From NCBI GenBank assembly GCA_028280945.1, contig JANQKV010000056.1, positions 16,969 through 80,968 of the forward strand: a stretch of DNA of 64,000 nucleotides, given 5' to 3'. Below are positions 12,765-40,553 of this stretch, one piece after another. How positions within the stretch are numbered: position 1 is the stretch's first letter; each line of letters starts with the position of its first letter. The stretch is from Opitutaceae bacterium (GTDB lineage Bacteria; Verrucomicrobiota; Verrucomicrobiia; Opitutales; Opitutaceae). The translations under genes were made by a program, and so were the position numbers. The notes beneath the pieces were generated by a model. That model was given only the letters and a program-made list of their open reading frames with translations. It was not told the origin of the DNA and made no database searches.

Positions 12765-15389
12765 CTACTCGGCGCGGAGGGAGTCGATCGGATTTGCCGC
12801 CGCGGCCTTCCGGGCCGGCAGCCAACACGCGCTCGCGGTGACGATCGAGAGAGTCAGGACCGTGACACCGATGACCAGGGGATCGAACTTGTTGGTCTCC
12901 GGCAAAAGAGCACCCAGCCCAACGAGGCCGATGCTCGAAAGACCCACCCCCAGAACGAGCCCTCCGGCCAGCAGCCGGGCACCTCCGCCCAAAACCAGTT
13001 TTATCATGTCCGAGGCCGCTGCCCCCAAGGCCATGCGGATGGAAAGTTCCCGGCGGCGGTTGGCCACGGAATAGGACATGACCCCATAAAAACCGACGCA
13101 GGCGAGAGTGAGCGCCGTGAAGGCAAATGCGGCGATCAGGCGCAGAATCAATTTCTGGGGGCCGAGCGAGCTTTCCAGCCGCGAGGACAGGGTGTTCATC
13201 CTGTCGAGCGGCAGGTTGGGGTCGAATTGATGCACGGTGGCGGATACGATCTTGGCCAAGGCCATCGGGTCACTCTCCGTGCGAATGAGAAACTTGGAAT
13301 ACCAGGGGAATTCCTGGTGCGGCACAAAGAAGGTGGGGGCGGGAGGCTGGTGCAGTCCGTCTATGCGCATGTCGGCGACCACGCCAACAACTTTCCAGGG
13401 ATGGCCGTCGGCATGGATGAGTCGCCCGATGGGATCTTCGTTTTCTTTAAACAGAGTGCGGGCCAGGGCTTGGTTTATCACCATGACCTTGGCTGCTTCG
13501 GGGCGGTTGTCGTTGGTGTCAATGAACCGCCCCCGGATCAAGTGGGCTCCCAGGACGTCAAAATAGTTTTCGGAAACGTATTTGATACGCCCGTCCCGAT
13601 CCGTGCGGGTTTCGGGCTCCTCTTCGAGGCTATAGAAGTAGCTTTGGCCATCCGGGCCAAACGGCAGGTCGTCGGTCGTCGCCACCGCGGTTACGCCGGG
13701 CAGGGCGGACAGGGTGTTGCGCACATCCGCCAGGAATTCCATGCGAGCATTCGCTTCGTCATACCGGCCGCTGTAGGGCATGGTGAGATCAAAGAGCAGC
13801 ACGTTGTCGGGGTTGAACCCCGGCGGGGCGGTCACGGTGCGGACCATGTCGCGGACCAGGAAACCGGTCGCGATGAGAAGCACGGTTGTGAGCGCAACTT
13901 CGACGACGATGAGCAATGATTGGCTACGGTTGCGGCTCCCGTCGGTGGTCCCGCCAGTGTTGTTTTTCAGGGCCGTGTTGGGATCGGCGAACTGCGCTTT
14001 CCACGCCGGCACGACCCCAAAAAGCAATCCGGTCGCGCCACTTGCCAGCAGGGAAAAACCCAGCACGCGCAGGTCCAGTTGAGGGTTCATGGTGGCGGGC
14101 AGCATGCCGCTGCTGAGTTGCTCCAGCAGCTTTAGCGATACTTCCGCGACGACGATTCCCGCAACTCCGCCCAGCAAGGCCAGGAGGAGGCTTTCGGTGA
14201 TGACCTGGCGCATGATACGTCCGCTGCTGGCACCAAGGGCGGAGCGCAGCGCGATCTCGCGTTGGCGTACGCTGGTGCGAGCCAGGAGGAGGTTGGCCAC
14301 ATTGGCGCACGCGATCAGCAACACCAGCGACACCGCACCAAGCAGGATGAGGAGAAACGGGCGGGACTCTTCCGCAAGCAGCGACTGAAAGGGTGTGCCG
14401 CCCACGCTCCAGTCCTGTTTGAAGTCGGGATAAGTGTCCCGCAGCTCGGTCTTGACGGCATTAAGCTGTGCGAGGCCGGAGGTGGGGGACGCCGATGCCT
14501 TGAGGCGGCCGATGGCGTTGCTGCGATGCACTTGGTGGGATGCCTTGTAGGTGCCTACTTCAAGCACGTGGGGCAGGAAAATCTGCACGCCGCGTTCATG
14601 CCAAATTTGCTGGGGGTAGACGCCAATGATCTCGTGGGGGGTGCCGTCGATGATTAGCGATTGGCCCAGGGCCGAGTCTTTGCCGCCGAAGCGTGTTCGC
14701 CAAAAGGTTTCGGAGAGAATGGCCACAGTGTTTCGTCCGCCGACCACTTCGTCCCCCTCCCGGAAGTCGCGCCCTCGCAGCAGGGGCAGGCCAAAAACTT
14801 CGGCAAAACCGTGCGAAACGGAAAGGGCCCACAGTTTCTCCGGATCTCCCAGTCCCGTGAGGTCGTAGAGATCATTGGTGTAGATGGTCAGCGCCTCGAA
14901 TTCGGTCTGGTGCATCCGCCAGTCGCGGAAGGCGGCGCCCGAAACGGAATTGCGGTTCCCATTGGAATTCAGTTCGTGGATACTGATCAGGCGATCGGGT
15001 TCCGGGTAGGGCAGTGGTCGCAACAGGACGGCGTCGACCGCACTGAAGATGGCGGTGTTGGCTCCGATCCCGATGGCCAGGGTCGCGACAGCGACGACGG
15101 TGAATCCCGGTGATTTGACCATCATGCGTAAGGCGAAGCGCACGTCCTGGCCCATCCCGTCCCACCAAGCCCCCAGGCGGTTGTCCCGTACTTCTTCCGT
15201 GCGAGCGTCGACGGAGCCGAAGGTGGCGGCGGCAAGGCGCCGGGCGGTGGCGGGGGTTTCGCCGTTGGCGATGCGGCGCTCGGTTTCGGCTTCGATGTGG
15301 TGGCGCATTTCCTCCGCCATTTCCGTTTCGAAGCGGTTGCGGAACAAGCGGCGGCGAATTCTAACGATGAGGCGGTGCATGAAAATCAT
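12765..15389 (-). CDS. ADOP-type ABC transporter permease (MacB/FtsX domains with N-terminal prefix)
   Basis: FGSVDARTEEVRDNRLG prefix, RFALRMMVKSPGFTVVAVATLAIGIGANTAIFSAVDAVLLRPLPYPEPDRL, C-terminal ADPIDSLRAE-like end. Confidence 0.9.
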   Translation of the reverse strand: MIFMHRLIVRIRRRLFRNRFETEMAEEMRHHIEAETERRIANGETPATARRLAAATFGSVDARTEEVRDNRLGAWWDGMGQDVRFALRMMVKSPGFTVVAVATLAIGIGANTAIFSAVDAVLLRPLPYPEPDRLISIHELNSNGNRNSVSGAAFRDWRMHQTEFEALTIYTNDLYDLTGLGDPEKLWALSVSHGFAEVFGLPLLRGRDFREGDEVVGGRNTVAILSETFWRTRFGGKDSALGQSLIIDGTPHEIIGVYPQQIWHERGVQIFLPHVLEVGTYKASHQVHRSNAIGRLKASASPTSGLAQLNAVKTELRDTYPDFKQDWSVGGTPFQSLLAEESRPFLLILLGAVSLVLLIACANVANLLLARTSVRQREIALRSALGASSGRIMRQVITESLLLALLGGVAGIVVAEVSLKLLEQLSSGMLPATMNPQLDLRVLGFSLLASGATGLLFGVVPAWKAQFADPNTALKNNTGGTTDGSRNRSQSLLIVVEVALTTVLLIATGFLVRDMVRTVTAPPGFNPDNVLLFDLTMPYSGRYDEANARMEFLADVRNTLSALPGVTAVATTDDLPFGPDGQSYFYSLEEEPETRTDRDGRIKYVSENYFDVLGAHLIRGRFIDTNDNRPEAAKVMVINQALARTLFKENEDPIGRLIHADGHPWKVVGVVADMRIDGLHQPPAPTFFVPHQEFPWYSKFLIRTESDPMALAKIVSATVHQFDPNLPLDRMNTLSSRLESSLGPQKLILRLIAAFAFTALTLACVGFYGVMSYSVANRRRELSIRMALGAAASDMIKLVLGGGARLLAGGLVLGVGLSSIGLVGLGALLPETNKFDPLVIGVTVLTLSIVTASACWLPARKAAAANPIDSLRAE

Positions 15390-18091
15390 TCGCTGCGCAG
15401 GGCTTCGATGGGATCAGCTCGACCGGCGCGGCGGGCAGGGAGCCAGGCCGCGCTCAAACCTACCAGGACCAGCAGCAGGCCGACTCCCACCCAGGTTCCG
15501 GGGGAAAAGGGCGAGACTTCATAAAGCTGACTGCGGATTAGATGGCTGAGTCCAAAAACGACGGGGAGTCCCGCTCCCAGTCCGATCAGCACCAATCGCA
15601 AGGCATCACCCAGAATGGGCCGCACCACATCCCGGGCTTGAGCCCCCACGGCGACTCGAATGGCGAACTCCCGTGATCTGCGAGTGACCTCGAATGCGAT
15701 CAGACCATACAGCCCGATGCAGCAGAGCAGGAGGGCAACGGCTGCGAGAGCGGTCCCGAGGGTGGCGAGCAGCTTCTCACGTCCGATGTTGTGGTTCACG
15801 TTCGCCTGCATCGTGCTTACGTTCATCACTGGCACGGCGGGATCCACTGTCGCCACGGCTTTGATAATGGTTGAATTCAACCCGTCCGGCGGCAAAGGCG
15901 ACCTCACCACAAAAACGGCCGAATCCATCGAACTGTCGATAAAGCGTCCATAGAAACGCTGGCGCATGGGGAAGTAGCTGGTGGGCTGGAAGTCCTCCTT
16001 GATGTTTTGGTAGCGTGCATCGGCGACGACTCCGACAATGCGCCACTCGGCATCCCAAACCCGGATCACGTGGCCGAGAGGGTCTTCTTCCGGCAGGTAG
16101 CGATCCACGAAGCTTTGGTTTACGATGATCACCTTCGATGACTCGCCGTCATCGGCGGGATTGAAGTGGCGACCTTTGAGAAGAGGGATCTGCAGGGTTT
16201 CAAAAAACGACTCGTTCACCGTTTGACGAAACATGTAGCGGCGATCGGGACCGGTGAGGGTTTTGGTGGTGAAGTTTACCCCACCCGCCGATCGGGTGTC
16301 GGCCAATAGAGGAATCTGCATCAAGGCCGCATGGCTTATTCCGGGCACCGCCTCGAGGGAGGCCAGCACGCGGTCGTAGTAGTCCACCCGGGCTGCCCCC
16401 TGGTATCCCGAAGAGGCGGGGTTCAGCTGGAAAGTCACGAGGTCGGATGTCTTAAAACCGGTGTCGATTTGGCGAAGACTGTTCAGGCTGCGCAGCCCCA
16501 AAGTGGCTCCGGTCAGCAGGGCCAGTGACAGGCAGATTTGAGCGACGACCAAGACACGGCCGGTGCGCTGATGCGGACCCCCGGCGGATCCCCGGGATTT
16601 CAGACCCGCCAACGGATCAGCCCGGCCGGCTCGCAATGCCGGCAGCAGGCCCGCGAGAAGAATGGTGAGCAAACACGCGAGCACGCTGAAACCGAGAACC
16701 CTCTGATCCAACGCCGGATCGTAGTTTAGTCCGGCGGTGGAGCCGGCGAGAAGTCGGGAAATGGCGTGCCGTCCCCACGTTGCGATAAGGATGCCGCCGA
16801 TACCGCCCAGAAATGCGAGCACTGCGCTTTCCGTAAGGGACTGGCGGATAAGACGCCGGCGCCCGGCGCCAAGGGCAACACGCAGAGCAAATTCATGTTG
16901 GCGGGAAGCGCCTCGAGCGAGTGACAGTCCGGCGAGGTTGGCGCAGGCGACGAGCATGACCAATCCCGTCACAATCAACATGGTGACAAGAGGCTGACCG
17001 TAGGATCGGCGGTCGAATCCCAAACCTCCAGCCCCGGGCTTGAGCAGAATCTGCGGGTTGGTCATGCGTTCCCGCGCATGTTCACCAAACGCGGTGGACA
17101 GGGCGGCGGTGATCGGGGCATCGCTCTGCGAGCCCGGGATCCGAGCCATCAAGCGAATGAACCAGTGCCAGTCATTGGAGAATTCCGTGTAAAGGAAGGG
17201 CGAGCGGTCCGCCATGGGAATGTATATCCCCGGTGGATTGCTCGGGCGAATGCCGTGAAACCCAGCGGGCAGCACGCCAACTATGGTATAATCCAAGCCG
17301 CGTATGCGGAGGGACCTGCCCAGCACGCCCGGATCATGGGTGAAGTGCGAACGCCACAACTCGTGACTGATCACCGCCACATTGTCTCCGCTGGTGTCGT
17401 CGCCGGTTTGGAGCAGTCGGCCGATAAACGGGCGGACTTGGAGTCCGGAAAAAAAGTTGTCGCTCACCATTTGACCGGTCACCGCGAAAGATCGCTGGCC
17501 GGAGCGAGCCGTGATTTGATTCAGGGGGAAGTAACCGAAGAGTTCTCCTCGATCACCCAGCTGTTCGCGCAGACCCAGGAAGGTGGGATGGTTGAAGGAC
17601 GGACGAACGCGGTAGTTTCCGATGGTTTCGCCAAACTCATGATTGAGGGAAGGTACCCGGACGTCTTCGCCGCTCCAATGCACAATGCGAAGCTCACCGG
17701 GATGGGGAACGGGCAGCGTTTTCAGGAGAATCGCGTTGACCAACGAAAACACCGCTGTGCTCGCGCCGATGCCGATGGCGATGGTGGCGATTGCCACCAA
17801 GGTGAATCCAGGTGATTTTCGAAGTCCGCGGAGCGCATATCGGATGTTGTGCCACACCTCTTCGAGTGACCGCCCGAGTCGACCATCCCGCACCTCTTCG
17901 GTGCGGGCGTCGATGGAGCCAAATTCGGCCGCCGCGCGCCGGCGCGCCGTCTTGGGATCCTCGCCTCCCATCACGCGTCGCTCGGTTTCCGTCTCAATGT
18001 GGAGGCGCAGTTCCTCCGCCATTTCTGATTCGAACTTCCGCCGAAACATCGTGCGGTGGAGGCGGGTCAACAAGCCGGAAAGTCTGTTCAT
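15386..18091 (-). CDS. ADOP-type ABC transporter permease
   Basis: FGSIDARTEEVRDGRLG, IRYALRGLRKSPGFTLVAIATIAIGIGASTAVFSLVNAILL; 4-nt overlap with next gene. Confidence 0.9.
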   Translation of the reverse strand: MNRLSGLLTRLHRTMFRRKFESEMAEELRLHIETETERRVMGGEDPKTARRRAAAEFGSIDARTEEVRDGRLGRSLEEVWHNIRYALRGLRKSPGFTLVAIATIAIGIGASTAVFSLVNAILLKTLPVPHPGELRIVHWSGEDVRVPSLNHEFGETIGNYRVRPSFNHPTFLGLREQLGDRGELFGYFPLNQITARSGQRSFAVTGQMVSDNFFSGLQVRPFIGRLLQTGDDTSGDNVAVISHELWRSHFTHDPGVLGRSLRIRGLDYTIVGVLPAGFHGIRPSNPPGIYIPMADRSPFLYTEFSNDWHWFIRLMARIPGSQSDAPITAALSTAFGEHARERMTNPQILLKPGAGGLGFDRRSYGQPLVTMLIVTGLVMLVACANLAGLSLARGASRQHEFALRVALGAGRRRLIRQSLTESAVLAFLGGIGGILIATWGRHAISRLLAGSTAGLNYDPALDQRVLGFSVLACLLTILLAGLLPALRAGRADPLAGLKSRGSAGGPHQRTGRVLVVAQICLSLALLTGATLGLRSLNSLRQIDTGFKTSDLVTFQLNPASSGYQGAARVDYYDRVLASLEAVPGISHAALMQIPLLADTRSAGGVNFTTKTLTGPDRRYMFRQTVNESFFETLQIPLLKGRHFNPADDGESSKVIIVNQSFVDRYLPEEDPLGHVIRVWDAEWRIVGVVADARYQNIKEDFQPTSYFPMRQRFYGRFIDSSMDSAVFVVRSPLPPDGLNSTIIKAVATVDPAVPVMNVSTMQANVNHNIGREKLLATLGTALAAVALLLCCIGLYGLIAFEVTRRSREFAIRVAVGAQARDVVRPILGDALRLVLIGLGAGLPVVFGLSHLIRSQLYEVSPFSPGTWVGVGLLLVLVGLSAAWLPARRAGRADPIEALRSE

Positions 18092-18104
18092 GATGATGGT
18101 TGTT

Positions 18105-20810
18105 TTATTCGCTGCGCAGGGCGCTCAGGACGTCGATGTGGGCGGCGCGGCGAGCCGGCAGCCAGACCGCCACGGCGGAAGCCGAGGCCAGGGCCAGGAT
18201 GGTGCCGAGCAGGGCGAAGGGGTCGAATGGCGTCACGTCGAAGAATGCGGCCCGCGCCATGAAGCCGAGACCGATGGCGAGCGGCAGTCCCATCAGCAGC
18301 CCCCAGATGGTGAGAAGAAGAGACTCCGAGAGCACCTTGCGGGCGATTTCACCGGGAAGCGCTCCGAGAGCCATGCGGATGCCAATCTCGGCCCGCCGCT
18401 GGTTCGTGCTGTAAGTCATGAGCCCATAGAGGCCGATGCAGCTCAGCAGAACAGCCAACCCTCCCAGCGAGCCAAACAGCATGGCGAAGGAACGCTCAAT
18501 GGCGATCGAACTGTCAAACTGGGCCTCCAGGGTGGAGATGTTCGCCAGCGGAATCGACGGATCCAAGGCAGTGATTTCCTTGCGTGCCGCCGGAATGATC
18601 GCAGTCGCCGGCAGAGCGCTGCGGATGTAGAAGTCCATGGCGGGCGGTGTATTCTGGCGCGCCGAGGTGAACATGGTCATGGGGGGCTCGCTCTTGACGT
18701 CATCGTAAAGGGTTGTCCCGCACACCCCGATGATTCGGTAATTGGTTCCTCCCATCCGCAGGGTCTGGTCGATGGGGAGTTGACCCGGGAAATGACGCTC
18801 TGCGAGCAACGCATTTATCACGGTGACAGGCTCGGAATCCACGTGGTCCTGCGGTCCAAATGCACGGCCCCTTTGGAGTCCAATGTTGAGGGTCTCGAAA
18901 TAGTCGTCCGCCACCACCATGGTGTAGGCCTGCATGCGTTCGTCGGGTCGCGGCTCGCGACCGGGAATATGGAATCCACTGGAGGCCATGCTGCCGCTCA
19001 GCAGTCTGATGTTGGAAGCCGTCACGGAGGTCACGCCGGGTATGCGGGAGAGGTTTTCCTGAGCTTGATCAAAAAACTCCAGCCGCTGTTCGTCGGCATA
19101 ACCCTCCTGATCGGCATTGAGCCGGAAGATCAAAAGGTTCTGTGAATCGAAGCCCGTTTCGACCGCACGGAGATTGTCCAAGCTGCGCACGAACAGTCCG
19201 GCGCCCGTCATCAGCAATACGGAAAGGGCGATTTGGATAATGACCAGCGCACGGCCCAGGCGATGCCGGGTGATGTTGCAGGTTCGTCCCGTCTGCAGGT
19301 CGGTGACCAGGTCGGTCCGCGAAGCCCGGAACGCTGGCAGCAGGCCACAGAGCAGGGCGGTCGCCACGGTCACCGCCACGGCAAAGAGCATCACGTTGCC
19401 ATCGGTGGTGAGGTCCAATTCCAGTCCGGGATGGGTTGTCGGGAGGTATCTCAGCATGCCGTTTTTGAGGAGAGCACCAAACCAGAATCCACCCGCGCCG
19501 CCGCCCGCGGCCAACAGGAAGCTCTCGACCAACAGGCGACGCATCAGGCGAAGTCGTTGGGCGCCGATGGCTGCACATATCGCGAACTCCCGGCGCCGCA
19601 CCGTGGCCCGAGCCAGCAACAGCCCGGCCAGGTTGGCACATGCGATCAAGAGGATGACTCCAACGATACCCTGCAGGGCAAACAGCCGGGGGGCAATGGC
19701 TCCGCGGTTGGGCACGATGCCGGCCCGGCCATCCTGAATCAGGACGTCAGGTTTGTTGGCGCGAGTGCTGGATTGATCGAGGGTGTGCTCAAGGCGGGAC
19801 CGCAGCACGGTATGAAGCTGAGCGTTCGTCCGCTCCGGATGAAGACGCACCATCATCCTAATCCACCAATTGTCATAGGACTGCAGGGCCCGGTAGGGTT
19901 GAAGCAGGGGTTGCGCGGCCAGGGGAACGTAGACATCGATCGGTTCCCCGGGGAACGGAGCGGCATAATCGACCGGCATGACCCCGATGATGCTGAACTT
20001 GTGCCGGTTTATGCTGATGGTCGCACCCAGGATATCGGGATCGGCGGCATAGCGGGTTTGCCAAAGGCCATGCGTGATGACCGCGACGGGTGCCGCGTTG
20101 GCGAGATCATCCGCGGGCGCAAACACGCGACCAATTTGAGCGGAAACCTGCATGCCGTTGAAGTAGTTGCCGGATACCATCAGCACATCGGAGATTCCAA
20201 CTTCTCCCCCGGCCCCCGTGGCCTGGCCGCGGACGGGAAAGAAACCAAACACGTCGCCGAGGTCTGCGGCGCTATCCCGAAAATCCTCGAACGTGGCATG
20301 GGGAAAGGCGTTGGCCTCAAGTCGGCCGTTCACACTGAATCCGCTGCCGGTGAAGTTGTTGAGCGAGACGTCTTCTCCCGTCCATTTCAGGATGCGCAAC
20401 TGTTCAGGATTGGGCACGGGCAGGGAGCGCAAGAGCATGGCGTTCACCACACTGAAGATGGCCGTGTTCGCACCGATACCGAGGGTGAGGGTGAGAATGG
20501 CAACTCCGGTGAAAGCCCGTGACTTTCGCAATTGGCGGAACGCAAAAACAAAATCCTGCCAGAGCTGTTCGAGCCAAACGCTCAGGCGGGCGTCCCGGAC
20601 TTCCTCGGTGCGGGCATCCACGGAGCCGAACTCGGCCGCTGCACGACGACGGGCGGTGGCGGGACTCTCGCCGAGAGCGATCCGGCGTTCGGTTTCCAAC
20701 TCGATGTGCGCCTGCATCTCTGCAGCCATCTCATCCTCGAAACGACGCCGGCGAATCGAGCGGGTGAGACGAGTGAATAGTCCTTTTAACGCACTCATGT
20801 CCGGATCCAA
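18105..20810 (-). CDS. ADOP-type ABC transporter permease
   Basis: FGSVDARTEEVRDARLSVWLEQLWQDFVFAFRQLRKSRAFTGVAILTLTLGIGANTAIFSVVNAMLLRSLPVPNPEQL. Confidence 0.9.
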   Translation of the reverse strand: MDPDMSALKGLFTRLTRSIRRRRFEDEMAAEMQAHIELETERRIALGESPATARRRAAAEFGSVDARTEEVRDARLSVWLEQLWQDFVFAFRQLRKSRAFTGVAILTLTLGIGANTAIFSVVNAMLLRSLPVPNPEQLRILKWTGEDVSLNNFTGSGFSVNGRLEANAFPHATFEDFRDSAADLGDVFGFFPVRGQATGAGGEVGISDVLMVSGNYFNGMQVSAQIGRVFAPADDLANAAPVAVITHGLWQTRYAADPDILGATISINRHKFSIIGVMPVDYAAPFPGEPIDVYVPLAAQPLLQPYRALQSYDNWWIRMMVRLHPERTNAQLHTVLRSRLEHTLDQSSTRANKPDVLIQDGRAGIVPNRGAIAPRLFALQGIVGVILLIACANLAGLLLARATVRRREFAICAAIGAQRLRLMRRLLVESFLLAAGGGAGGFWFGALLKNGMLRYLPTTHPGLELDLTTDGNVMLFAVAVTVATALLCGLLPAFRASRTDLVTDLQTGRTCNITRHRLGRALVIIQIALSVLLMTGAGLFVRSLDNLRAVETGFDSQNLLIFRLNADQEGYADEQRLEFFDQAQENLSRIPGVTSVTASNIRLLSGSMASSGFHIPGREPRPDERMQAYTMVVADDYFETLNIGLQRGRAFGPQDHVDSEPVTVINALLAERHFPGQLPIDQTLRMGGTNYRIIGVCGTTLYDDVKSEPPMTMFTSARQNTPPAMDFYIRSALPATAIIPAARKEITALDPSIPLANISTLEAQFDSSIAIERSFAMLFGSLGGLAVLLSCIGLYGLMTYSTNQRRAEIGIRMALGALPGEIARKVLSESLLLTIWGLLMGLPLAIGLGFMARAAFFDVTPFDPFALLGTILALASASAVAVWLPARRAAHIDVLSALRSE

Positions 20811-20811
20811 G

Positions 20812-23505
20812 TTATTCGGCCCGCAATGCGGTCAGGACATCGATTCGGGCGGCTCGTCGGGCGGGGATCCAGACCGCTACCGTTGCGGCGAAGGCCAGGG
20901 CCAACACCGTTCCGATCAACGTGACAGGATCGTAGGGTGCTATATCGAAAAACGCCGCTCGGGCGGCAAATCCCAGTCCGATGGCCAGCGGTAATCCGAT
21001 CCCCAACCCCCAAGCTGCCAGTCTCAATGAATCGGAAAGCACTTTTCGAGAAATGTCCGCGGGCAAGGCGCCCAGGGCCATGCGGATGCCGATTTCCGCC
21101 CGGCGTTGTGCCATGCTATAAGCCATGAGCCCGTAGAGCCCGATGCAGCTGAGCAAAATCGCCAGTCCTGCCAACGACCCGAAGAGCATCATCATGGACC
21201 GTTCCGTGGAAATCGAGCCGTCGAATTGTGCCTCCAGCGTCGAAATATTGGCCAAGGGAATGGTTGGATCCAAATTAACGATCGTCTGACGGACTTCGTC
21301 CACAATCGCCGTCGCAGGAAGGGAGGTGCGAACGTAGAAATCCATCGACCTCAAGCTCTGTTGACGCGCTGATGTGAACAAAGTCATGGGAGGCGGTTGA
21401 CGGACCGCGTCGTAAAGCGTGGGACTGCATACTCCGATGATACGGAAATTCCTTCCGTCCATCCGTAGGATCTGGCCCACGGGATTCTGATTGGGGAAAC
21501 AGTACTCGGCAATCAGCGCGTTGATGACCATGACCGCCTCGGTCTCCCTGTTGTCCTGTGGACCGAAGGTGCGACCGTTTTGAACGCCAATGTTGAGGGT
21601 TTTGAAATACTCGTCCGCCACGACCATGGTGTGTGCCTGCCATCGCTCCCCATGCTGAAGTTCCTGCCCTGGGATGCTAAATCCGCTGCTGGACATCGAT
21701 CCTTGCAACAAGCGCACACTGGAGGCGGAAACGGACGCTACCGATGGCAGTTTGATCAGATTGCTGCGGACCTGGTCGAAAAAATCCAGGTGTTGTTCAT
21801 CCGTGTATCCTTCCTGATTGGCATTCAGTCGAAACACCAACGTGTTGGTCGCATCGAAGCCCGGATCAATGGCATTGAGGTTGCCAAAGCTGCGCATGAA
21901 AAGGCCGGCGCCAGTTACCAGCAAAACGGAGAGAGCGATTTGTATTGCTACCAGCGCACTCCCCCAGCGGTGTCGGATGAAGTTGCTGGAATTTCCCAAT
22001 TTGAGATCCGTGACGAGATCGGTTCGCGACGCCCGAAAGGCCGGCAGCAGTCCACACAAAACGGCGGTGGCGATCGTGATGCCGCCAGCGAACCACAAGA
22101 CGTTTCGGTCTATGCCCAAATCCAATTCAGGGCCTAATTGAGCTCCGTGAAAGTTTGCCATGAGCCCGTTTTTAATCAGCTCATCCAAGGCGAGGCCGCA
22201 GAGTCCTCCGGCTACGGCGAGCAAGAGGCTTTCCACCATCAAGCGGCGAATCAGGCGAGAGCGTTGGGCGCCGATCGCCGCGCAGATGGCAAACTCGTGT
22301 CGCCGCACGGTGGCTCGCGCCAACAACAGACCGGCGAGGTTGGCGCAGGCGATTAGCAGAATCACCGCGACCACCCCTTGGAGGGCGAGTAGTCTGGAAG
22401 TAAGGAACTCCCGAGCGGGCACGATGCCCGACCGCCCGTCTTTAATCAAAATATCGGAACTGTCGGCCCGAGATCGGGATTGCTCAAAGGCACTTGCCAA
22501 CAGGGGCTGCAGGACTTCGCCCAGCTGTTCATCGGTGTGCCCGGTGCGTAACCGCACCATCAAACGAACCCACCAATTGTCGTAGGAGCGCATGGTCCGG
22601 GAGGGCCGCAGAACGGACTTCGCCGCCAACGGCACGTAAACATCGAACCTGTTGCCGGGGAAAGGGGAGGCGTGTTCAGGTGGCAGCACCCCAACGATTA
22701 CAAATTTGTTTCGGTCGATGCTGATGGATTGACCGAGAATACCGTAATCGGAGTCGAAGCGGGTCTGCCAAAGACCGTGAGTGATTATGGCAACGGGTTC
22801 GGAATTGGGGAGATCGTCGGTTGGTTCAAATACACGCCCGATTTGCGCGGATTGCTGCATGCCGGTGAAATAATTATCCGACACCATCATGACATCGGAG
22901 AACCCCACTGTGCCTGCCGCCATGGTTGTTTGGTTGCCCAACGGAAAACAACCGAACACTTCGCCCAGCGATTCAGCTCCGGCGCGAAAGTCCTCGAATG
23001 TGGGGTGAGGGAAGGCGTCGGCCTGCCTTTGGCCATTCACCATGGAGGAGCTGCCGGTAAAGCTGGGTATGGAGACCTCTTGTCCGGTCCATTGCAGGAT
23101 GCGCAGTTGTTCAGGGTGGGGCACGGGCAAGGAGCGAAGCAGCATCGCGTTCACCACACTGAAGATCGCGGCGTTGGCGCCGATCCCGATGGCGAGGGTC
23201 AGCACGGCCACCGTGGTGAAGCCGGGGGATTTTCGGAGTTTCCGGGACGCAAACACGAAGTCCTGCCAGATCTGCTCCAGCCAAACCCCAAGGCGTGCGT
23301 CCCGCACCTCCTCGGTGCGGGCATCAATTGAACCAAATTCGGCGGCAGCTCGGCGGCGGGCGGTGGCGGGGTCTTCGCCCATGGCGATGCGGCGGGCGGT
23401 CTCGTGCTCGATGTGGTCGCGCATTTCCGCGGCCATGTCGCGATCGTGGGAGTGGCGTCGAAAGGCGCGGCAAATGCGGGTGAGGTAGCCGGAGATTCTG
23501 CTCAT
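20812..23505 (-). CDS. ADOP-type ABC transporter permease, close paralog of 18105..20810
   Basis: [78 protein letters not shown]. Confidence 0.9.
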   Translation of the reverse strand: [897 protein letters not shown]

Positions 23506-23523
23506 TTTAAAGTGGTGGATGGC

Positions 23524-23602
23524 TAGTAGAGGGTAGTGTGTAGTTAAATAAGGGATACGCAGGATTTGATGCTCGCTCGTCGCTACCCACCACTCGCTAC
23601 TG
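23524..23602. repeat. Dispersed repeat family 2, copy 2 (GTAGCGAG-type)
   Basis: AGTAGAGGGTAGTGTGTAG with imperfect inverted CGCTACCCACCACTCGCTACTG; between two ADOP genes. Confidence 0.55.
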
Positions 23603-23608
23603 ATCGAT

Positions 23609-26260
23609 TTATTCGCTGCGCAGCGCTTCGGTGGGGTTGATCTTGGTGGCTCGCCAGGCGGGCAGGCCGAGGGCGATCGAAGCGGCGGTGATCAGCACCA
23701 CGCCCGCGCCGAGATATACCACGGGGGCGAATGCATCGACGTCGTAGAGCAGATTTGAGATGATCCGGGTGCCAGACCAGGCCACGAAAATTCCCAGGGC
23801 GATCCCGGCCAATACAATCCTAGCCCCCTGCTGGTAGACGAGGGCGGCGATCTGGCCGCGCTGAGCTCCCACGGCTACTCGGATACCCAGCTCCCGGCGT
23901 CGCTGCCGCATGAGGTAGGAAACGACGCCATAGAGTCCGACTGCGGTGATCAGCACGGTTACCCCGGAGAAGAACAGCAGCAGTTGCAGGATGGAGTGCT
24001 CCAGGGCGACCGCTTCCCTGACCCAATCACTGATCAAGGCCACCTCCGCCAACGGGAGCCCCGGGTCGATGCCGGCCACGATGGAGCTGATCGATGAAAC
24101 CAGGGACGTCGGGGAACCGGTTCCTCGCACTACAAAACTCATGACCGCCACGTCGGCGGTCTGGAGCTGGCCGGCCGGCACGTAGATCATCGCCTTGATT
24201 TCGTTACGCAGGCTGAAGTGCTGCACGTTGTGCACGATGCCGATCACTTCCATCGGTTTTTCCTGCCAGCCGAATTGGATGCTGCGACCGATGGCATCCT
24301 CCTCGCCGAAATGGTTGTGGGCCAGGCGTTCGTTAATGATCACGACGGGAGACGCGTCGGCGTGATCCCGGCGGTCGAAGAACCGGCCCCTGATCAAGTC
24401 AATGCCCATTGTCGCGTGGTAGTCGTCCAGCACCACCCGGGCCTGCACGGGCTTTGGCTCCGGCTCTCCGCGGCCGTCGATGAACCACCAACCCCAACCC
24501 TCCGAGTGGCCACTGAGGGGCGGTGCGTGACTGCCGGTGACGGCGGTCACGCCGGGCAGGGCGGCGGTCTGCCCGCGGATGCGATCAAACATCTGCACGC
24601 GGGTCTCGTGATCGGTGTAGTCGGTATCCGGAAGAGTGATACGAAAGCTCAGGCGGTCCTCCGTTTGGAATCCCGGGTCAACTGATGTCAGACGCACGAA
24701 ACTCACCAGCATCAATCCCGCGGCGACTAGCACAGCGGTGGCGATGGCAAACTGGGCGGTCATCAGTCCATTCAACAATCGGTTCTGATTCTGTCCGGCC
24801 GTGGTGCTGCGGTTGGCGGTGTCAATGGCCTGGTCCGCGGACCGCACCCGGCAAAGGCTGGCCGCGGTGATCGCGAAGGTGGTCAACGCGCATACGACCA
24901 AGGCGAACAGAATCGCATCGCGGTCGAATCCGAAACGGGCAATTGCAGTGAGAGCGGGAGGGCCGACCCGCGCCAGCAGGTTGACACCCCATGAAGCGAG
25001 CAATACTCCGCCGATGCTCCCCAGCACAGCCAACAGTCCCGTCTCCGCCAACAATTGCCGCGTGAGGCGACCGCGGCTGGCGCCCAAGGCCGAGCGCACG
25101 GAAAATTCACCTTCCCGGGAAATGGTGCGCACCAGGGTGAGTTTGACACCGTTGACCACCGTGCTGATGAGCAGCAGGGCAACGAGCGTGACGGTTGCCC
25201 ACAGCGCCGGTCGGACGAGTCGGTTGCGATCTTCCTGCAGACTGACGACCCGGGTGAGGGATTCTTCGCTGAGCTCCGGGCGTTCCGTTTGGATGCGCTC
25301 GGCGACGGCAAGCATTTCGGCATGGGCGGAGTCGACCGTGACGCCGGGTTTCAACTTGGCGACCACGTTGTAATACCATTCCCCGCGATTGAGTCGTTCA
25401 ATTGGTTCCAGAAACGGCAGCAGAAAGTCAGTGTTTTCGGGACGAGGTAGAATGGTTAAAAACGCTTCCGGAGACAGCACGCCAATCACCCGGTGAGACT
25501 GGGCGTCGAGTGTGATGTGCCGGTCGAGTACGGAAGGGTCACGATTGAAATCGGTCACCCATGTCTCGTGGGAAAGCACGGCCACGGCTTCCGCTCCGGG
25601 CGACGCGTCTTCCGCCGTAAGTCGGCGACCCAGCTGCATTGGCAACCCCACGATATCGTAGAGACTGGGGCTGGCGACTAGAGCCCTAGCCTGCCGGGGC
25701 GAACGGTTGTTGTGATTAAATACCGTGGTGCGCTGGGAGAAGATCGCAAAGTATTCAAAGGAGGAGGTGCGTTCCCGCCAGGCATGAATCAACGGACCGC
25801 TGGTGGTTTGATTGGCGGAGTGACCGTCCTCTTTGCGGGTGGCGGCCACCCGCACCACGCGATCGGAGTCGGCGAAAGGCAGATCGCGCCACAACACCTC
25901 ATTGACGATGCTAAAAATGGTCGCAGCCGAACCAATGCCCAGCGTGAGAATCAAGACAGTGACCACGGAAAAGGTCGGTGACTTGCGCAGGCCGCGCAGA
26001 GCGTAGCGCAGATCGATCCGGAGGTCATCAAACCACGCCCCCATCCGAGCGTCGCGCACCTCTTCGGTGCGGGCATCGACCGAGCCGAACTCAGCCGCGG
26101 CTCGGCGGCGCGCGGTGGCGGGGTGCTCGCCGGTGGCGATGCGACGGGCGGTTTCCTGTTCGAGGTGGGATTGCATTTCCGCGGCCAGTCCGCCGTCGGA
26201 TTCGCGACGGAAAAACATGCGGCGCAGACGCACCCAGAACCCTCGCAGTCGATCGATCAT
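23609..26260 (-). CDS. ADOP-type ABC transporter permease
   Basis: [63 protein letters not shown]; overlaps padR-like gene by 4 nt. Confidence 0.9.
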   Translation of the reverse strand: [883 protein letters not shown]

Positions 26261-26604
26261 CCCAGGTCCTTCAGTTTCGCACCGAGCACTTGGTTGACCG
26301 CGAGAGACAGGCGCTCCCAGTTGGCGGTTTCATTGGCGAGCTGTTTACGACCGAGCTTCGTGATTTCGTAGAACTTGGCCTTTCGATTGTTCTCCGAGAT
26401 TCCCCAGTCCGAGGTGATCCAGCCCTGTTCCTCGAGCCGGTAGAGCGCGGGATAGAGTGAGCCCTGTTCAACGCGCAGCACGTCTTCGGAAATTTGGCGG
26501 ATGCGCACGCTGATGCCGAACCCGTGCATGGGCTGCAGCTGCAGGGCCTTGAGGATCAGCATGTCGAGGGTGCCTTGGAGGAGGTCGGTCTTGTCTTTGG
26601 CCAT
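26257..26604 (-). CDS. PadR family transcriptional regulator
   Basis: DLLQGTLDMLILKALQLQPMHGFGISVRIRQISEDVLRVEQGSLYPALYRLEEQGWITSDWGISENNRKAKFYEIT. Confidence 0.95.
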   Translation of the reverse strand: MAKDKTDLLQGTLDMLILKALQLQPMHGFGISVRIRQISEDVLRVEQGSLYPALYRLEEQGWITSDWGISENNRKAKFYEITKLGRKQLANETANWERLSLAVNQVLGAKLKDLG

Positions 26605-26655
26605 GGTGAAAAAGGGTTGGGAGGGTGAAATGGAATACTCGTGTGCGCCGGGAGG

Positions 26656-29298
26656 TTATTCATCCCGCAAGGCGACGATGGGATCGACGGCGGTTGCTCG
26701 TCGGGCGGGCAGCCAACAGGCGATCAAAGTCGTGGCGAGCAATAGCCCGGTAATGGCTCCGGCAATGATGGGTTCAGCGGGTGGTAATGCCGGGAGCAGC
26801 GATTGAAGGATCCGGGCTACAGTCCACGCCCCGACTGAACCGATGGCGGTGCCGACCAGCGTGAGTTGCAGTCCCTGACTCAGTATGAGAACGAGAACGT
26901 CCCGCCATTGGGCGCCGAGGGCCATGCGAATGCCGATCTCATTGGTGCGTTGGGCAACGTGTCCTGAGACCACACCGTAGAGACCGATGGCGGCAAGGGT
27001 GAGCCCCAGCAGGGCAAATCCAATCAGGACCTTGCCGATCAACGCGAAATTTGCCGTATTGTTGCGCACGATCCGCGATGCTGGATTGATCTCCGCGACG
27101 GGAAGTTCCGGATCGAGCTCGGCAATGATTTGACGGACGCTTTCCACCAATGTTGCGGGTGGCACAGCACACTTCATGGCGATGGAGAAAGACCGGGGTG
27201 GATTGGAAGCCAAGGGTCGGTAGGTCTGAAATCGCTCGCCCGAGCTGTCTAGATTGGACGCGAACTTCACGTCCTGGACGATTCCCACGATTTCTTGCCA
27301 CTTGTCGGGTTGCCGGGGATGGGCGATTCGTTTGCCTATGGCCGATTCACCCGGCCAAAGACTGTGGGCCATGGATGCACTGATGATGGTCGGGGTGGGT
27401 CCCTCTGCGTCCGCAGGCTGGAAGGGGCGTCCTTCGACGATCGCTATTCCCATGGTTGAGAAGTAGTCTGGAGTCACGAGATTGACATCCCGCATCGGTT
27501 CGGTGCCGGCTTTAAGTGGGGGATGGCCCTCGACAATGTAGTATTGTCCCCAGCCAAAACCATAGAACGGCAATGTGCGGGAAAGTGAAACCCCCTCCAC
27601 CCCGGGCAGGGCGGCAAGACGGGATTCCAATCGATCGTAGAACACCTGTATGGCAGCGTTGTCGGGATACTTGGTTTCCGGCAGGCTCAAACGGGCCGTG
27701 AGCAGGTCGTCGGTTTGCCAACCGACATCACGATCAACAAATCGATCCAACCCCCGCATGAAAAACCCGGCGCCCGTCAGGAGAATCAAGGCGAGCGCAA
27801 CCTCGGCGATGATCAAGCCGTGCCGAAGCCGGGCATGCGCCACCGACGTCGTGCCCCGGCCGGACTGTTTCAGTGCTCCGTTGACGTCGGTGCGTGAAGA
27901 CAGCACCGCCGGCAACAAACCGAAGATCACCGCTGCCAACAGCGCCGCGGCGAAAGCAAAACCGGCGATCCGCCAATCAATGGCCAACGCCGAAGGCTGG
28001 TCCCCCCAGAACGAGTGGGAGCTCAAGGCGGCGTTCACCCATGCGGCGATCAACAGCCCCAATCCACCTCCGCCGAGTGCGAGGACCAATGACTCTGCCA
28101 ACGAATGCCAGATCAACCTGATACGGGAGGCCCCGAGAGCGGCCCGGATGGCGTGTTCGCGGGTGCGCAAAACGTTTCGGGCAAAGAAAAGGTTGGCCAA
28201 GTTGACGCAGGCGATCAGGAGCACGCAGGTCGCCAAGCCCATCGCAAACAAGGTGAGGAGACGGACCATCTTATCCTGAGTGGAGCGCACGAACGGGATG
28301 AGGTTCATCCCCGTTTCCGAGTTGGTGGCGGGATGAACCAATGCCAGCGCGGCACAGTGCGAGTTCATTTCCGCATGAGCCATGGCAACCGTGGCTTCCG
28401 GGCTGAGTCGCCCGAGCATCGAGAGCCAGTTGCTTCCCCGTGCTTCCAAGTCGTCCGCCGCAAACGAGAGGGGTTTCCAGCCCGAGATCGAACCCCACAA
28501 CATCGGATCTTCAAATCCCGCCGGCATGATCCCCACGATGTGGATCAGCTCACCGTCGAGACGTATGGACTGACCCAGAATACTGGGATCGGCAGCGAAT
28601 CTCTGCTGCCAGAATGCATGCGTGATCACGACAACATCATCATTGTCCGGTTGATCATCCTCCGGGGTAAGGGAACGTCCCAGTTCCGGAGACACACCCA
28701 GGGCCGCGAAGAAGTTTCCGGAAACGGCCAACATCTGCAATTGTTCGGCGGGTTGCCCGGGTTCGGCATGATTGACGCTGGTTCGAGCATACGCGGCGAG
28801 GTGGCTGAACGACTTGGTCCGGTCTCGCAGATCGACGTAGTTGGCCGGCGAATGCGGTGCATCCTGCATGGTTGGAGTTGTCCGAAAAACGCGGATCAAT
28901 TGGTCCGATTCCGGATAGGGCGCCCGGTGAAACAGCAAGGCATCAAGTATGCTGAACATCGACGTATTCACCCCGACGCCGAGGGCGAGGGTAAGGAGGG
29001 CAATTGAAGTGAAGGCTGGGGCTTTCATGAGAGAGCGCACTCCGAATCGCAGATCGCGACCGAGCACGGTCAGGTTTGCTCCCAACCTTGCATCCCTGAC
29101 TTCTTCGGTGCGGGCGTCGATGGAGCCGAACATGGCCTTGGCTCGGCGATGGGCGGTTGCGGGACTTTCGCCATGAGCAATTAGGCGTTCGGTTTCCGCT
29201 TCTACATGAAACTGCATCTCTTCCGCCATTTCGCGCTCAAAGCTGCGCCGGCCAATCACACGTCTGAGCCGGGTGAATACGCTTTTGATTTTTGGCAT
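26656..29298 (-). CDS. ADOP-type ABC transporter permease
   Basis: [58 protein letters not shown]; start chosen at internal Met ([13 protein letters not shown]). Confidence 0.88.
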   Translation of the reverse strand: [880 protein letters not shown]

Positions 29299-29582
29299 AG
29301 CGGAGGGCGAGCGTGACGATTGAGGATGGGGGGGAGATAGGCTCTTTCCTAGATTGTCGACATGAGAGACAGGCACTCCTGTCGATTGTCAAGGAGAACG
29401 CTCTCTTGGTGGATAAGTTACGGGAAAAGTGCCTCGAATCGGTTGACCGCGGCGCTGCCTTCTGGTCGACGTTCCCTGATTCTTCAGCCATCTGCGGGGA
29501 GGGAATCATGGCATCCGGTTTCTTTCCGACCTTCCCCACACAAGGTTTGTAACCGCCGTTGATTCCATGCGTCTTGATTTTG

Positions 29583-32122: not shown

Positions 32123-32373
32123 TTTTACAGAAGGCAACGAAGGGAACGAAGGCTTGGGAGCGGGGAGGCCCAGCTTGGTTTCCTTCGTTGGCTCCTATAA
32201 CAAAGACCCAATTTTTACAGAAAGGAGCGGAAGATTGTGCTGCGGTGGGGCAGAGAGGTTTTCTACAGGAGTTAACCGAGAAAAGCAGAGGAGTGGCTTC
32301 CTTGACTTCGTTTCCTTCTGTAAAACTCAGCGTTGGAGTGGCTCTTTTTTGCTCCGTTTCCTCCTGTGAAAGA
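32123..32373. repeat. Composite dispersed repeat family 1, copy A
   Basis: Arm I TTTTACAGAAGGCAACGAAGGGAACGAAGG at 32123; degenerate inverted arm I ~32176; second arm I ~32213; arm II CTACAGGAGTTAACCGAGAAAAGCAGAG ~32264; inverted arm I CTTCGTTTCCTTCTGTAAAA ~32305; inverted arm II GCTCCGTTTCCTCCTGTGAAA ~32351. Confidence 0.75.
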
Positions 32374-37438: not shown

Positions 37439-38374
37439 TCAGCCGCGAACCGTAAACAACCAACCGGTGTAAAGCAGATAAGCGAGGAACAGGGCCGCGC
37501 CTTCGCGACGGTCGATTTTGTGCCCGGTTTGAACGAGCGGAAACAGCGCCAGGGTCAAGACCACCAACATCACGATGTCACCGGTCTGCAGGGCGATGAA
37601 GATGCCTCCGGCGGCAATGCCCGTGGCTCCCAGGATGCCCAGCAGGTTGAAGAGGCTGGAGCCCACCACATTACCGATGGCGACGTCGGTTTCGCCGTTT
37701 TTCACCGCGACGACGCTGATCGCGAGCTCCGGCAAGCTGGTGCCGATCGCCACGATCGTCAGGCCGATCAAGGTTTCACTCCACCCGAGCAGGCGCGCCA
37801 TGGCCACCGCGCCTTCGACGAACATGTCCGAACCGTAGAGCAAAAATACCAAACCGCCGATGGTAAACACCAGGGCGAGCGACAGGGGCAAGGGTTTGGG
37901 TTCGTCGCTGCCGAGGGATTGGTTGGGTTCTTTCCTGGCGCGAATCAGCGTTACGACGGTGTAGACGATCAAACCCAGCACAAGGAGTGCGCCCTCGATT
38001 TGGCCGAGGAAGGAGTTCACCAAAACCACCGCGGCAATGAGGGTCACGCCGATGAGAATCGGCACCTCGCGCCAGATCACCGAACGATCCGTGGTCAGGG
38101 GGCGGATCATGGCGCAGAAGCCGAGAATCAGTGCGAGGTTGCAGAGGTTGGAGCCGATGACATTACCGACCGCGATTTCGGCCGCATCGCGTTTGGCGGC
38201 CTGCAGGCTCACCACCAGTTCCGGCGCGCTCGTGCCGAAGGCAACCACGGTAAGGCCGATCACCAGGGGAGTGAGTCCCAACCTTAGAGCCAGGGCCGCG
38301 GATCCGCGCACCAGGACTTCCGCCCCGATGGTGAGGACGATCAAACCGATGATGAGCAGAAGAAACGGCGGCAT
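37439..38374 (-). CDS. Calcium/sodium (CaCA family) antiporter
   Basis: Two inverted alpha repeats: VIGLTVVAFGTSAPELVVSLQAA...GNVIGSNLCNLALILG and LIGLTIVAIGTSLPELAISVVAV...GNVVGSSLFNLLGILG. Confidence 0.95.
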   Translation of the reverse strand: MPPFLLLIIGLIVLTIGAEVLVRGSAALALRLGLTPLVIGLTVVAFGTSAPELVVSLQAAKRDAAEIAVGNVIGSNLCNLALILGFCAMIRPLTTDRSVIWREVPILIGVTLIAAVVLVNSFLGQIEGALLVLGLIVYTVVTLIRARKEPNQSLGSDEPKPLPLSLALVFTIGGLVFLLYGSDMFVEGAVAMARLLGWSETLIGLTIVAIGTSLPELAISVVAVKNGETDVAIGNVVGSSLFNLLGILGATGIAAGGIFIALQTGDIVMLVVLTLALFPLVQTGHKIDRREGAALFLAYLLYTGWLFTVRG

Positions 38375-38537
38375 GCTGAAGAGGACGCGCCAAAACGGGG
38401 CCTGGCGCGGCCAGTTGTCAAACTTCGGTTGCGGGATCAAAAAGCCGGAGGACCGCCATTCGGCGGGCTGGCGGCCAGTAATTCAGACTGGCATTGCCGT
38501 GGTCTCGCCTGCCACGTTGACCGGCTCGTTCCACCAC

Positions 38538-40364
38538 ATGCCGCTGCTCACCATCAATGATCTGTCCCATGCCTTTGGCGGGCCACGCGTGCTGGACGGG
38601 GTGAATCTGCAAATCGAGGCCGGGGACCGGGTCTGCCTGGTGGGGCGCAACGGCAGCGGCAAATCGACCTTCATGCGGCTGCTGGCTGGTGAGATGAAAC
38701 CGGATGCCGGCACGCTCGTGCGAGCGCCGGGGGCCCGCGTGGCGCGGTTGCCGCAGGAGATTCCCGCGGATGTCGCGGGCGCGGTGCGCGAGGTGGTTGG
38801 GTCCGGTCTGGTGCCGGTTTCCGAACATGAGGAAGAGTGGGAGCAGGAGGTGCGGGTCGACCATCTGTTGGAGCGCATGGCGCTGGCGCCGGATGCCGAG
38901 TTTGCCGCTCTCTCCGGCGGCATGAAGCGCCGGGTGTTGCTGGCCCGGGCGCTGGCCGGTGAACCGGAGTTGCTCCTGCTCGACGAGCCGACCAACCATC
39001 TGGATATTGCCAGCATCGAATGGTTGGAGACGTTTTTGGCGGAATCGAAACTCGCCCTGTTTTTTGTCAGCCACGACCGCACGTTCCTCAAAAAACTGGC
39101 CACTCGCATTGTGGAGTTGGACCGCGGCCGGCTCACCGATTGGAATTGTGACTACGACACCTTCGTGGTGCGTCGGGCGGAGAGGCTCGAAGCCGAGGAA
39201 CGCGAACGGGCGCAGAAAGACAAGCGCCTGGCCCAGGAGGAAGCGTGGATTCGTCGCGGCATCAAGGCACGGCGCACCCGCGACCAAGGCCGGGTTGCCC
39301 GGCTGAAGGAAATGCGGGCGGAACGCCGGGCGCGGCGGGATCTCGCCGGCACCGCCACCATCAGGCTCAGCGAAACCGAACGCAGTGGCCGCCGCGTGGT
39401 GGAAACGAAGGGGCTCTCGTTCACCTACCCAGACGGACCGGTGATTGTGCGTGATCTCGACCTGTTGGTGACCCGGGGCGACAAGATCGGCCTGCTTGGT
39501 CCCAATGGCTCGGGCAAGACCACCTTGGTTAAACTCCTGCTCGGCCAGCTGGCTCCAACTTCGGGTGAGGTGCGCGAAGGCACCAAACGCGAGGTCGTTT
39601 ATCTCGACCAGCTGCGCGACCAGATCGACGACAACAAGTCAGTCGCCGACAATGTGTCCGATGGCAACAGCCACGTCACGGTCGAAGGGCAGAAGAAACA
39701 CGTCATCAGCTATCTGGAGGATTTTCTGTTTGAGCCGGACAGGTCACGCACCCCGGCCCGCGTGCTGAGTGGTGGCGAACGCAACCGGCTGCTGCTGGCG
39801 CGACTTTTCACCAAGCCTGCCAATGTGTTGGTACTCGACGAGCCGACCAACGACCTCGACAACGAGACGCTGGACCTGCTCGAGAATCTGTTGGTCGAGT
39901 TCACCGGCACTCTGCTGCTGGTGAGCCATGATCGCGACTTTTTGGACAACGTGGTCACGAGCACACTCGTAGCGGAAGGAGAGGGCCGATGGACCGAATA
40001 CGTCGGCGGCTACAGCGATTATGTCGCGGATCGGGAGAGAAATCGCCAACCCTCCTTCGCCAAGGCGATGGCAGGCGGGTCGGGAAAGCCCCGGAAAACC
40101 AAACCACCGCGCGCGCCAAAGCCGCGCAAGCTCAACTCCAAGGAGAAGCAGGAATTGGAGGCGCTGCCGACGAAGATCGAGACTCTCGAATCCGAGCAGG
40201 CTGAGCTTACGGAGAAATTGGCCGATCCTGATTTCTACGCCGCAAAAGCGGCCGAAGTCCCGGCCGTCAAGGCGCGGCTCGATGAGATTGAAACCGAAAC
40301 CCTCGAGGTCTTTGCGAGATGGGAAGAACTCGAAGCCATCAAAACCGCCAGCGAGGCAGGTTAG
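38538..40364 (+). CDS. ABC-F family ATP-binding protein (Uup-like)
   Basis: Two ABC domains: GRNGSGKSTFMRLL/LSGGMKRRVLLARALAGEPELLLLDEPTNHLD and GPNGSGKTTLVKLL/LSGGERNRLLLARLFTKPANVLVLDEPTNDLD; charged C-terminus. Confidence 0.93.
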   Translation: MPLLTINDLSHAFGGPRVLDGVNLQIEAGDRVCLVGRNGSGKSTFMRLLAGEMKPDAGTLVRAPGARVARLPQEIPADVAGAVREVVGSGLVPVSEHEEEWEQEVRVDHLLERMALAPDAEFAALSGGMKRRVLLARALAGEPELLLLDEPTNHLDIASIEWLETFLAESKLALFFVSHDRTFLKKLATRIVELDRGRLTDWNCDYDTFVVRRAERLEAEERERAQKDKRLAQEEAWIRRGIKARRTRDQGRVARLKEMRAERRARRDLAGTATIRLSETERSGRRVVETKGLSFTYPDGPVIVRDLDLLVTRGDKIGLLGPNGSGKTTLVKLLLGQLAPTSGEVREGTKREVVYLDQLRDQIDDNKSVADNVSDGNSHVTVEGQKKHVISYLEDFLFEPDRSRTPARVLSGGERNRLLLARLFTKPANVLVLDEPTNDLDNETLDLLENLLVEFTGTLLLVSHDRDFLDNVVTSTLVAEGEGRWTEYVGGYSDYVADRERNRQPSFAKAMAGGSGKPRKTKPPRAPKPRKLNSKEKQELEALPTKIETLESEQAELTEKLADPDFYAAKAAEVPAVKARLDEIETETLEVFARWEELEAIKTASEAG

Positions 40365-40553
40365 TTTTACAGAAGGCAACAAAGGAAACGAGGTGGGACA
40401 GGACTATCCAAGAGGCAGTGTCATTATTATACAAGGAAGCAGAGAAAAACGGAGCGGGGAGTGGTGGCTTGGAGTCTTTGTTCTCTTTGTTTCGTTCTGT
40501 AAAATGATCGATGGAGTGGCTCTGCTGTTCTCTGCGAACTCCTGTGAAATTTT
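40365..40553. repeat. Composite dispersed repeat family 1, copy B
   Basis: Arm I TTTTACAGAAGGCAACAAAGGAAACGAGG at 40365; degenerate arm II ACAAGGAAGCAGAGAAAAACGGAG ~40431; inverted arm I CTTTGTTTCGTTCTGTAAAA ~40485; inverted arm II GGAGTGGCTCTGCTGTTCTCTGCGAACTCCTGTGAAA ~40516. Confidence 0.75.

Follow-up and report, generated by a model that had tools for sequence, protein, structure and literature searches.

Composite inverted repeats in an Opitutaceae genome suggest a seemingly undescribed selfish-DNA family served by GxxExxY proteins

Two composite inverted repeats, copies A and B, lie in the 64,000-nucleotide stretch of an Opitutaceae genome analysed here (the window), and sequence comparisons indicate that they are copies of a mobile, non-coding element. 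We consider it probable that both are non-autonomous members of a mobile inverted-repeat family whose coding members carry one GxxExxY gene and which would spread by a cognate-nuclease mechanism. The mosaic of two arm types described for these copies in an earlier note was confirmed, the building blocks being two related 30-nt arms arranged as follows (scores are PWM bits):

32123-32371, no strand: copy A as a whole, a composite inverted-repeat element bounded by outer arm I and outer inverted arm II
32123-32152, plus: copy A arm I (TTTTACAGAAGGCAACGAAGGGAACGAAGG), 48.5 bits
32173-32202, minus: copy A degenerate inverted arm I, 31.7 bits, from the inverted-pair search
32213-32242, plus: copy A degenerate arm remnant (beginning TTTTACAGAAAGGAGCGG), 11.2 bits, weak
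32261-32290, plus: copy A arm II (TTCTACAGGAGTTAACCGAGAAAAGCAGAG), 37.3 bits
32290-32297, plus: copy A linker GGAGTGGC ahead of inverted arm I, from sequence, found in other copies too
32296-32325, minus: copy A inverted arm I, 44.3 bits
32335-32342, plus: copy A linker GGAGTGGC ahead of inverted arm II, from sequence
32342-32371, minus: copy A inverted arm II, 34.6 bits
40365-40549, no strand: copy B, composite element, order I+ II+ I- II-
40365-40394, plus: copy B arm I, 40.8 bits
40425-40454, plus: copy B arm II, degenerate, 30.8 bits
40475-40504, minus: copy B inverted arm I, 43.2 bits
40520-40549, minus: copy B inverted arm II, 34.0 bits

The extra degenerate arm I pair that had been noticed within copy A corresponds to the minus-strand arm at 32173-32202 and the plus-strand remnant at 32213-32242. 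The order of arm I, arm II, inverted arm I and inverted arm II does recur in copy B, but it is not a fixed architecture, being exact in only 3/49 clusters of what are otherwise mosaics. Likewise, the inner sequences had been called very different, which is true of the loops but not of the linker GGAGTGGC (reverse complement GCCACTCC), which stands ahead of the inverted arms and was also seen in further copies and in the genome of a relative. Copy B begins directly past the stop codon of an ABC-F-like ATPase gene (38037-40364), and neither copy contains an ORF of the GxxExxY family. Allowing at most one mismatch, TTTTACAGRAGG occurs six times in the window, always within copies A and B, compared with a mean of 0.24 and a maximum of 2 in 100 shuffles. 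Elsewhere in the window, the minus strand of 12765-29376 holds six consecutive ORFs of 874–906 aa. The first and the last each have two matches to MacB_PCD/FtsX permease domains, so that the row is apparently an expanded series of MacB-like permease paralogues.

The arms are a family of the whole genome and not a local duplication of two copies. With 2 mismatches allowed at most, a 20-nt arm pattern matched the 5.44-Mb draft assembly 94 times, as against once for the reversed pattern, and the arm matches fall into about 49 clusters. Across the 49 clusters in the fetched stretches of the genome the order of arms varies, and 42/44 of those that could be classified are intergenic. Iterated weight matrices yielded TTTTACAGAAGGaAACgAAGggAACgAAGg as the arm I consensus and TTTTACAGGAGgnAGCaGAGgaAAgCaGAG as that of arm II, each arm consisting of three units of about 9 nt (TTTTACAGRAGG-NAACRAAG-NNAACRAAG) in which the last two positions of a unit are variable. 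The 112 stretches of foreign DNA fetched by the arm I pattern mostly hold a simple hairpin (arm I, a loop of 5–191 nt and inverted arm I), with loops mostly unrelated in sequence. The conserved part of the family is the arms, neither the structure nor the loop. One tandem array of this genome (C42:57738-58515) alternates arm I and arm II hairpins of about 100 bp each, with 16 arms.

As the arms are able to pair, we considered whether the elements are a conserved structured RNA or a cis-regulator (an attenuator or 3'-UTR hairpin) acting through arm pairing. If arms were kept by base pairing, those of one element would be expected to be more alike than those of different elements. With tandem arrays excluded, arm I likeness was 21.65/30 within an element and 21.16/30 between elements (p 0.14), and arm II likeness was 20.25/30 and 20.40/30, respectively (p 0.42), so this comparison supports no compensatory changes between paired arms. 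Of 200 shuffles, only 1 folds at least as well as the minus strand of copy A (z -2.7), but the remaining copy folds tested gave z-scores of -0.9 to -1.5, and no match in the window reached the Rfam gathering score. A terminator was rejected, as no U-run follows the stem on either strand (each begins TTTT and ends AAAA), and a cis-regulator was rejected because the orientations of neighbouring genes resemble the background, with no preference. Since the loops differ in both sequence and length, the paired arms lack covariation and the folding is unremarkable, the structured RNA proposed in the earlier note is not supported, and we judge an RNA or regulatory role acting through arm pairing to be improbable.

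Mobility is indicated by two kinds of comparison. First, when the elements of this genome were compared all against all, dispersed copies emerged. C41:39341-39522 matches C57:148351-148532 with 87% identity along 180 bp, arm to arm, and three copies on C65 (near 5643, 21489 and 30072) are 83–88% alike from arm I through to the closing arm, the flanks being unrelated in both sets. Second, in relatives G003, G004, G005 and G007 the YheT-DoxX gene pair is separated by a short intergenic stretch, and the copy A site is empty. Homology running exactly from arm to arm between unrelated flanks, together with the empty sites, argues that the element is mobile. In relative G002, the same YheT gene is followed by an element with different arms. 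At the copy B site, other arm families directly follow the same gene in G001, G002 and G005, G003 has a degenerate arm of the present family, and no arms were seen in G004 and G007. As different arm families stand at orthologous places in relatives, the same intergenic sites appear to receive different elements. Those found in G002 (L209) and G001 (L318-L319) have the arm families ACGCAAAG, ACCACAGAT and ACCACGGAT and a shared linker, CCACTCCACCGC or ATCAGCCTGCTG; it looks as though arms had been swapped around it. The exact junctions of copies A and B are not readable because the relatives are too diverged (flanks about 72% identical), and the age and divergence of the element copies count against our preferred explanation. 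None of 102 elements is flanked by direct repeats of at least 4 bases that would mark a target duplication.

A candidate partner gene emerged from the DNA pattern itself. GxxExxY genes were present in 10 of the 112 foreign stretches (761 kb), which had been fetched solely by the arm I pattern, 9 of these 10 genes being no more than 150 bp away from an arm of the present family. Gene-sized gaps (250–800 bp) between neighbouring arms hold GxxExxY in 7/10 cases, and inspection of the translated ORFs in such gaps showed no recurring transposase. This genome has 11 S23 genes and 5–6 GxxExxY genes, most of them bordered by inverted short-period arms of assorted sequences; one GxxExxY gene (C4:9515-9898) is flanked by arm II of the present family, with arms at -51 and +3. 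The GxxExxY proteins match Pfam PDDEXK_3 and TIGR04256, of the PD-(D/E)XK superfamily, and D72, E82 and K84 are invariant among them. A sequence search found no related solved structure. Some observations count against a partnership. The AlphaFold model has a pLDDT of 47, too low for use. In addition, the genome's sole cognate GxxExxY gene has arms of type II, while those of type I are no less frequent. The C4 element occupies the same place in the sister species G001, and the coding element is therefore inherited rather than actively moving there.

The gene-sized gaps between arms also bear on whether the copies could be MITEs of a DDE transposase whose autonomous copy is unseen. As in MITEs, the elements are short and non-coding, have inverted ends, exist in many copies and are dispersed arm to arm. 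However, they lack target duplications and a conserved inner sequence, no transposase sharing their ends was found in the gaps where GxxExxY recurs, and arms of three 9-nt units are unlike the usual terminal inverted repeat. We regard a MITE origin as unlikely, to about the same degree as the RNA reading.

Were each protein to read its own arms, arm families would be expected to follow protein clades, and they do. The 8 GxxExxY proteins that have ACAGAAGG-type arms all group in a single clade (support 99/94) that spans Planctomycetota and Verrucomicrobiota (Akkermansiaceae and this genome), and this genome's other GxxExxY proteins, which have other arms, fall outside it. Arm type changes once on the protein tree, as against a mean of 7.5 in shuffled assignments, and 0/500 shuffles were as low. 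For the reverse test, a profile of the 8-protein clade was searched in 388 genomes (the C4 locus, itself in the profile, was counted too). Arms of the present family were found by the gene in 13/20 loci scoring at least 164 bits, compared with 1/10 loci at 143–153 bits. The other 7/20 loci, without arms above threshold, count against the association; in several of them the arms keep this design but have diverged, ACACAAAG being one example.

The agreement between protein and arm separates the proposed partnership from two further readings. One is that the arms are chromosomal protein-binding sites, for example for nucleoid or repair proteins, in which GxxExxY genes merely lodge. It would account for arms that are conserved singly while loops are not, and the phasing of the units fits binding along one helix face. 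It would not predict a match between protein clade and arm sequence for a host-factor site, and it sits poorly with different arm families at the same site in relatives and with copies dispersed loops included; we think it unlikely, if a little less so than the MITE reading. The other is a REP/BIME-type element, in which palindromic repeats are moved by a RAYT (Y1 REP-associated tyrosine transposase). The family shares with REP/BIME elements its intergenic, high-copy, non-autonomous mosaics of inverted units and the absence of target duplication, and this genome encodes six Y1_Tnp genes. A REP, however, is defined as a 20–40 bp palindrome with a GTAG or CGTC tag (PMC3733652), whereas the present arms are 30-nt units with a 9-nt inner period, carry neither an unpaired tag nor a GTAG/CGTC in their consensus, and track clades of a nuclease-family protein. 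The earlier note had pointed to RAYT or other transposases, but none of the six RAYT loci has an arm within 1.5 kb on either side, and RAYT was rejected as the mobiliser. We consider the REP/BIME reading the least probable of these alternatives. The RAYT, MITE and structured-RNA readings each fail at least one tested feature. What did hold from the earlier note is its other suggestion, a non-autonomous repeat larger than a simple REP, which agrees with the many copies, the arm-to-arm dispersal, the empty sites and the missing RAYT linkage.

The association of protein family and arms extends beyond this arm family. Phylum-wide, 21/27 GxxExxY genes and 19/29 S23 genes lie between inverted arms, as against 0/112 shifted control places, the samples being the best-scoring loci of each search and not random draws. 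The arm period is 7 nt for S23 (22/25 elements) and centred on about 9 nt for GxxExxY. In this genome, most of the 11 S23 genes (L031-L041) have inverted arms with a period of about 7 nt and words such as GTAGCGA, AAGTCAG and CTTATC, and none has arms of the present family; these S23 loci are a parallel element class. Outside the phylum, in Sphingomonas parapaucimobilis (NZ_CP155749, 482837-483265; L329), a GxxExxY gene with inverted arms TTCACGCGAAGGCGCGAGGACGCGA lies between fabD and fabG, as if it were an intervening sequence in the mRNA of the fatty-acid synthesis operon. GxxExxY genes of Gemmatirosa and Bernardetia have the same arm-bounded design, and those of Fusobacteria, Treponema, Prevotella and Persicobacter fell below the same arm threshold. 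In Fusobacteria bacterium ZRK30 (L332) and Prevotella nigrescens (L333), similar stretches stand on both sides of GxxExxY in direct rather than inverted orientation.

We infer that the GxxExxY protein recognises the arms and drives movement of the element, and that RNA is processed at the arms. In the mechanism that we favour, a cognate GxxExxY protein would read its own phased arms and cut or nick at them, on the element or on the target, and host repair would then copy the arm-bounded segment into intergenic DNA with no target duplication. Once transcribed, the inverted arms would fold into an RNase III-type stem like that of 23S rRNA intervening sequences, and an insertion within an operon could then be tolerated. 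More tentatively, and with rather less confidence than for copies A and B themselves, we propose that GxxExxY proteins may be the arm-specific mobilising nucleases of a large, multi-phylum class of selfish elements, each clade with its own arm word at a phase of about 9 nt, in parallel to S23p and the 7-nt arms of the rRNA intervening-sequence class; arm-only hairpins, including copies A and B, would then be non-autonomous descendants.

Homing endonuclease elements are similar in that a small nuclease-family gene lies in the propagated segment and there is no transposase. The present family differs from them in being multi-copy and arm-bounded, with no intron or intein and no tie to one homologous target. 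Among described elements, the nearest to the present family are the 23S rRNA intervening sequences that carry S23p in Coxiella and Leptospira, in which one small ORF lies between terminal inverted repeats (PMC4990558), as in the coding members of the present family. They are excised by RNase III and regarded as selfish, their mobility is suspected, and their origin is stated to be unclear (PMC4990558). That of Coxiella has a 28-bp stem and three tandem heptamers, GACAGAT, before the ORF (PMC4990558). As these heptamers fit the 7-nt period around S23 genes, the rRNA intervening sequences can be assigned to the S23/period-7 class, of which the present family is the GxxExxY/period-9 counterpart. 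It differs in lying between protein genes, in its arm period of about 9, in mostly having no ORF and in being linked to GxxExxY (PDDEXK_3) rather than S23p (TIGR02436). In a search of openly available journal papers, we found no description of the association between GxxExxY and arms and only two passing mentions of GxxExxY itself. The GxxExxY/period-9 class is thus seemingly undescribed, and the S23 class is the known type of 23S rRNA intervening sequence.

Neither GxxExxY nor S23 (a four-helix bundle), both common families in bacteria, has a known role. The correspondence of protein family with arm period, and of protein clade with arm sequence, gives both a testable one, recognition of their own flanking repeats. 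The same rule would account for intergenic repeats of the CACAGAG/CACGAAG type in Verrucomicrobiota and other phyla, and under it the rRNA intervening sequences would be a single branch within a broader class of selfish DNA. Overall, the analysis suggests that the GxxExxY family serves a widespread and seemingly undescribed family of selfish DNA.
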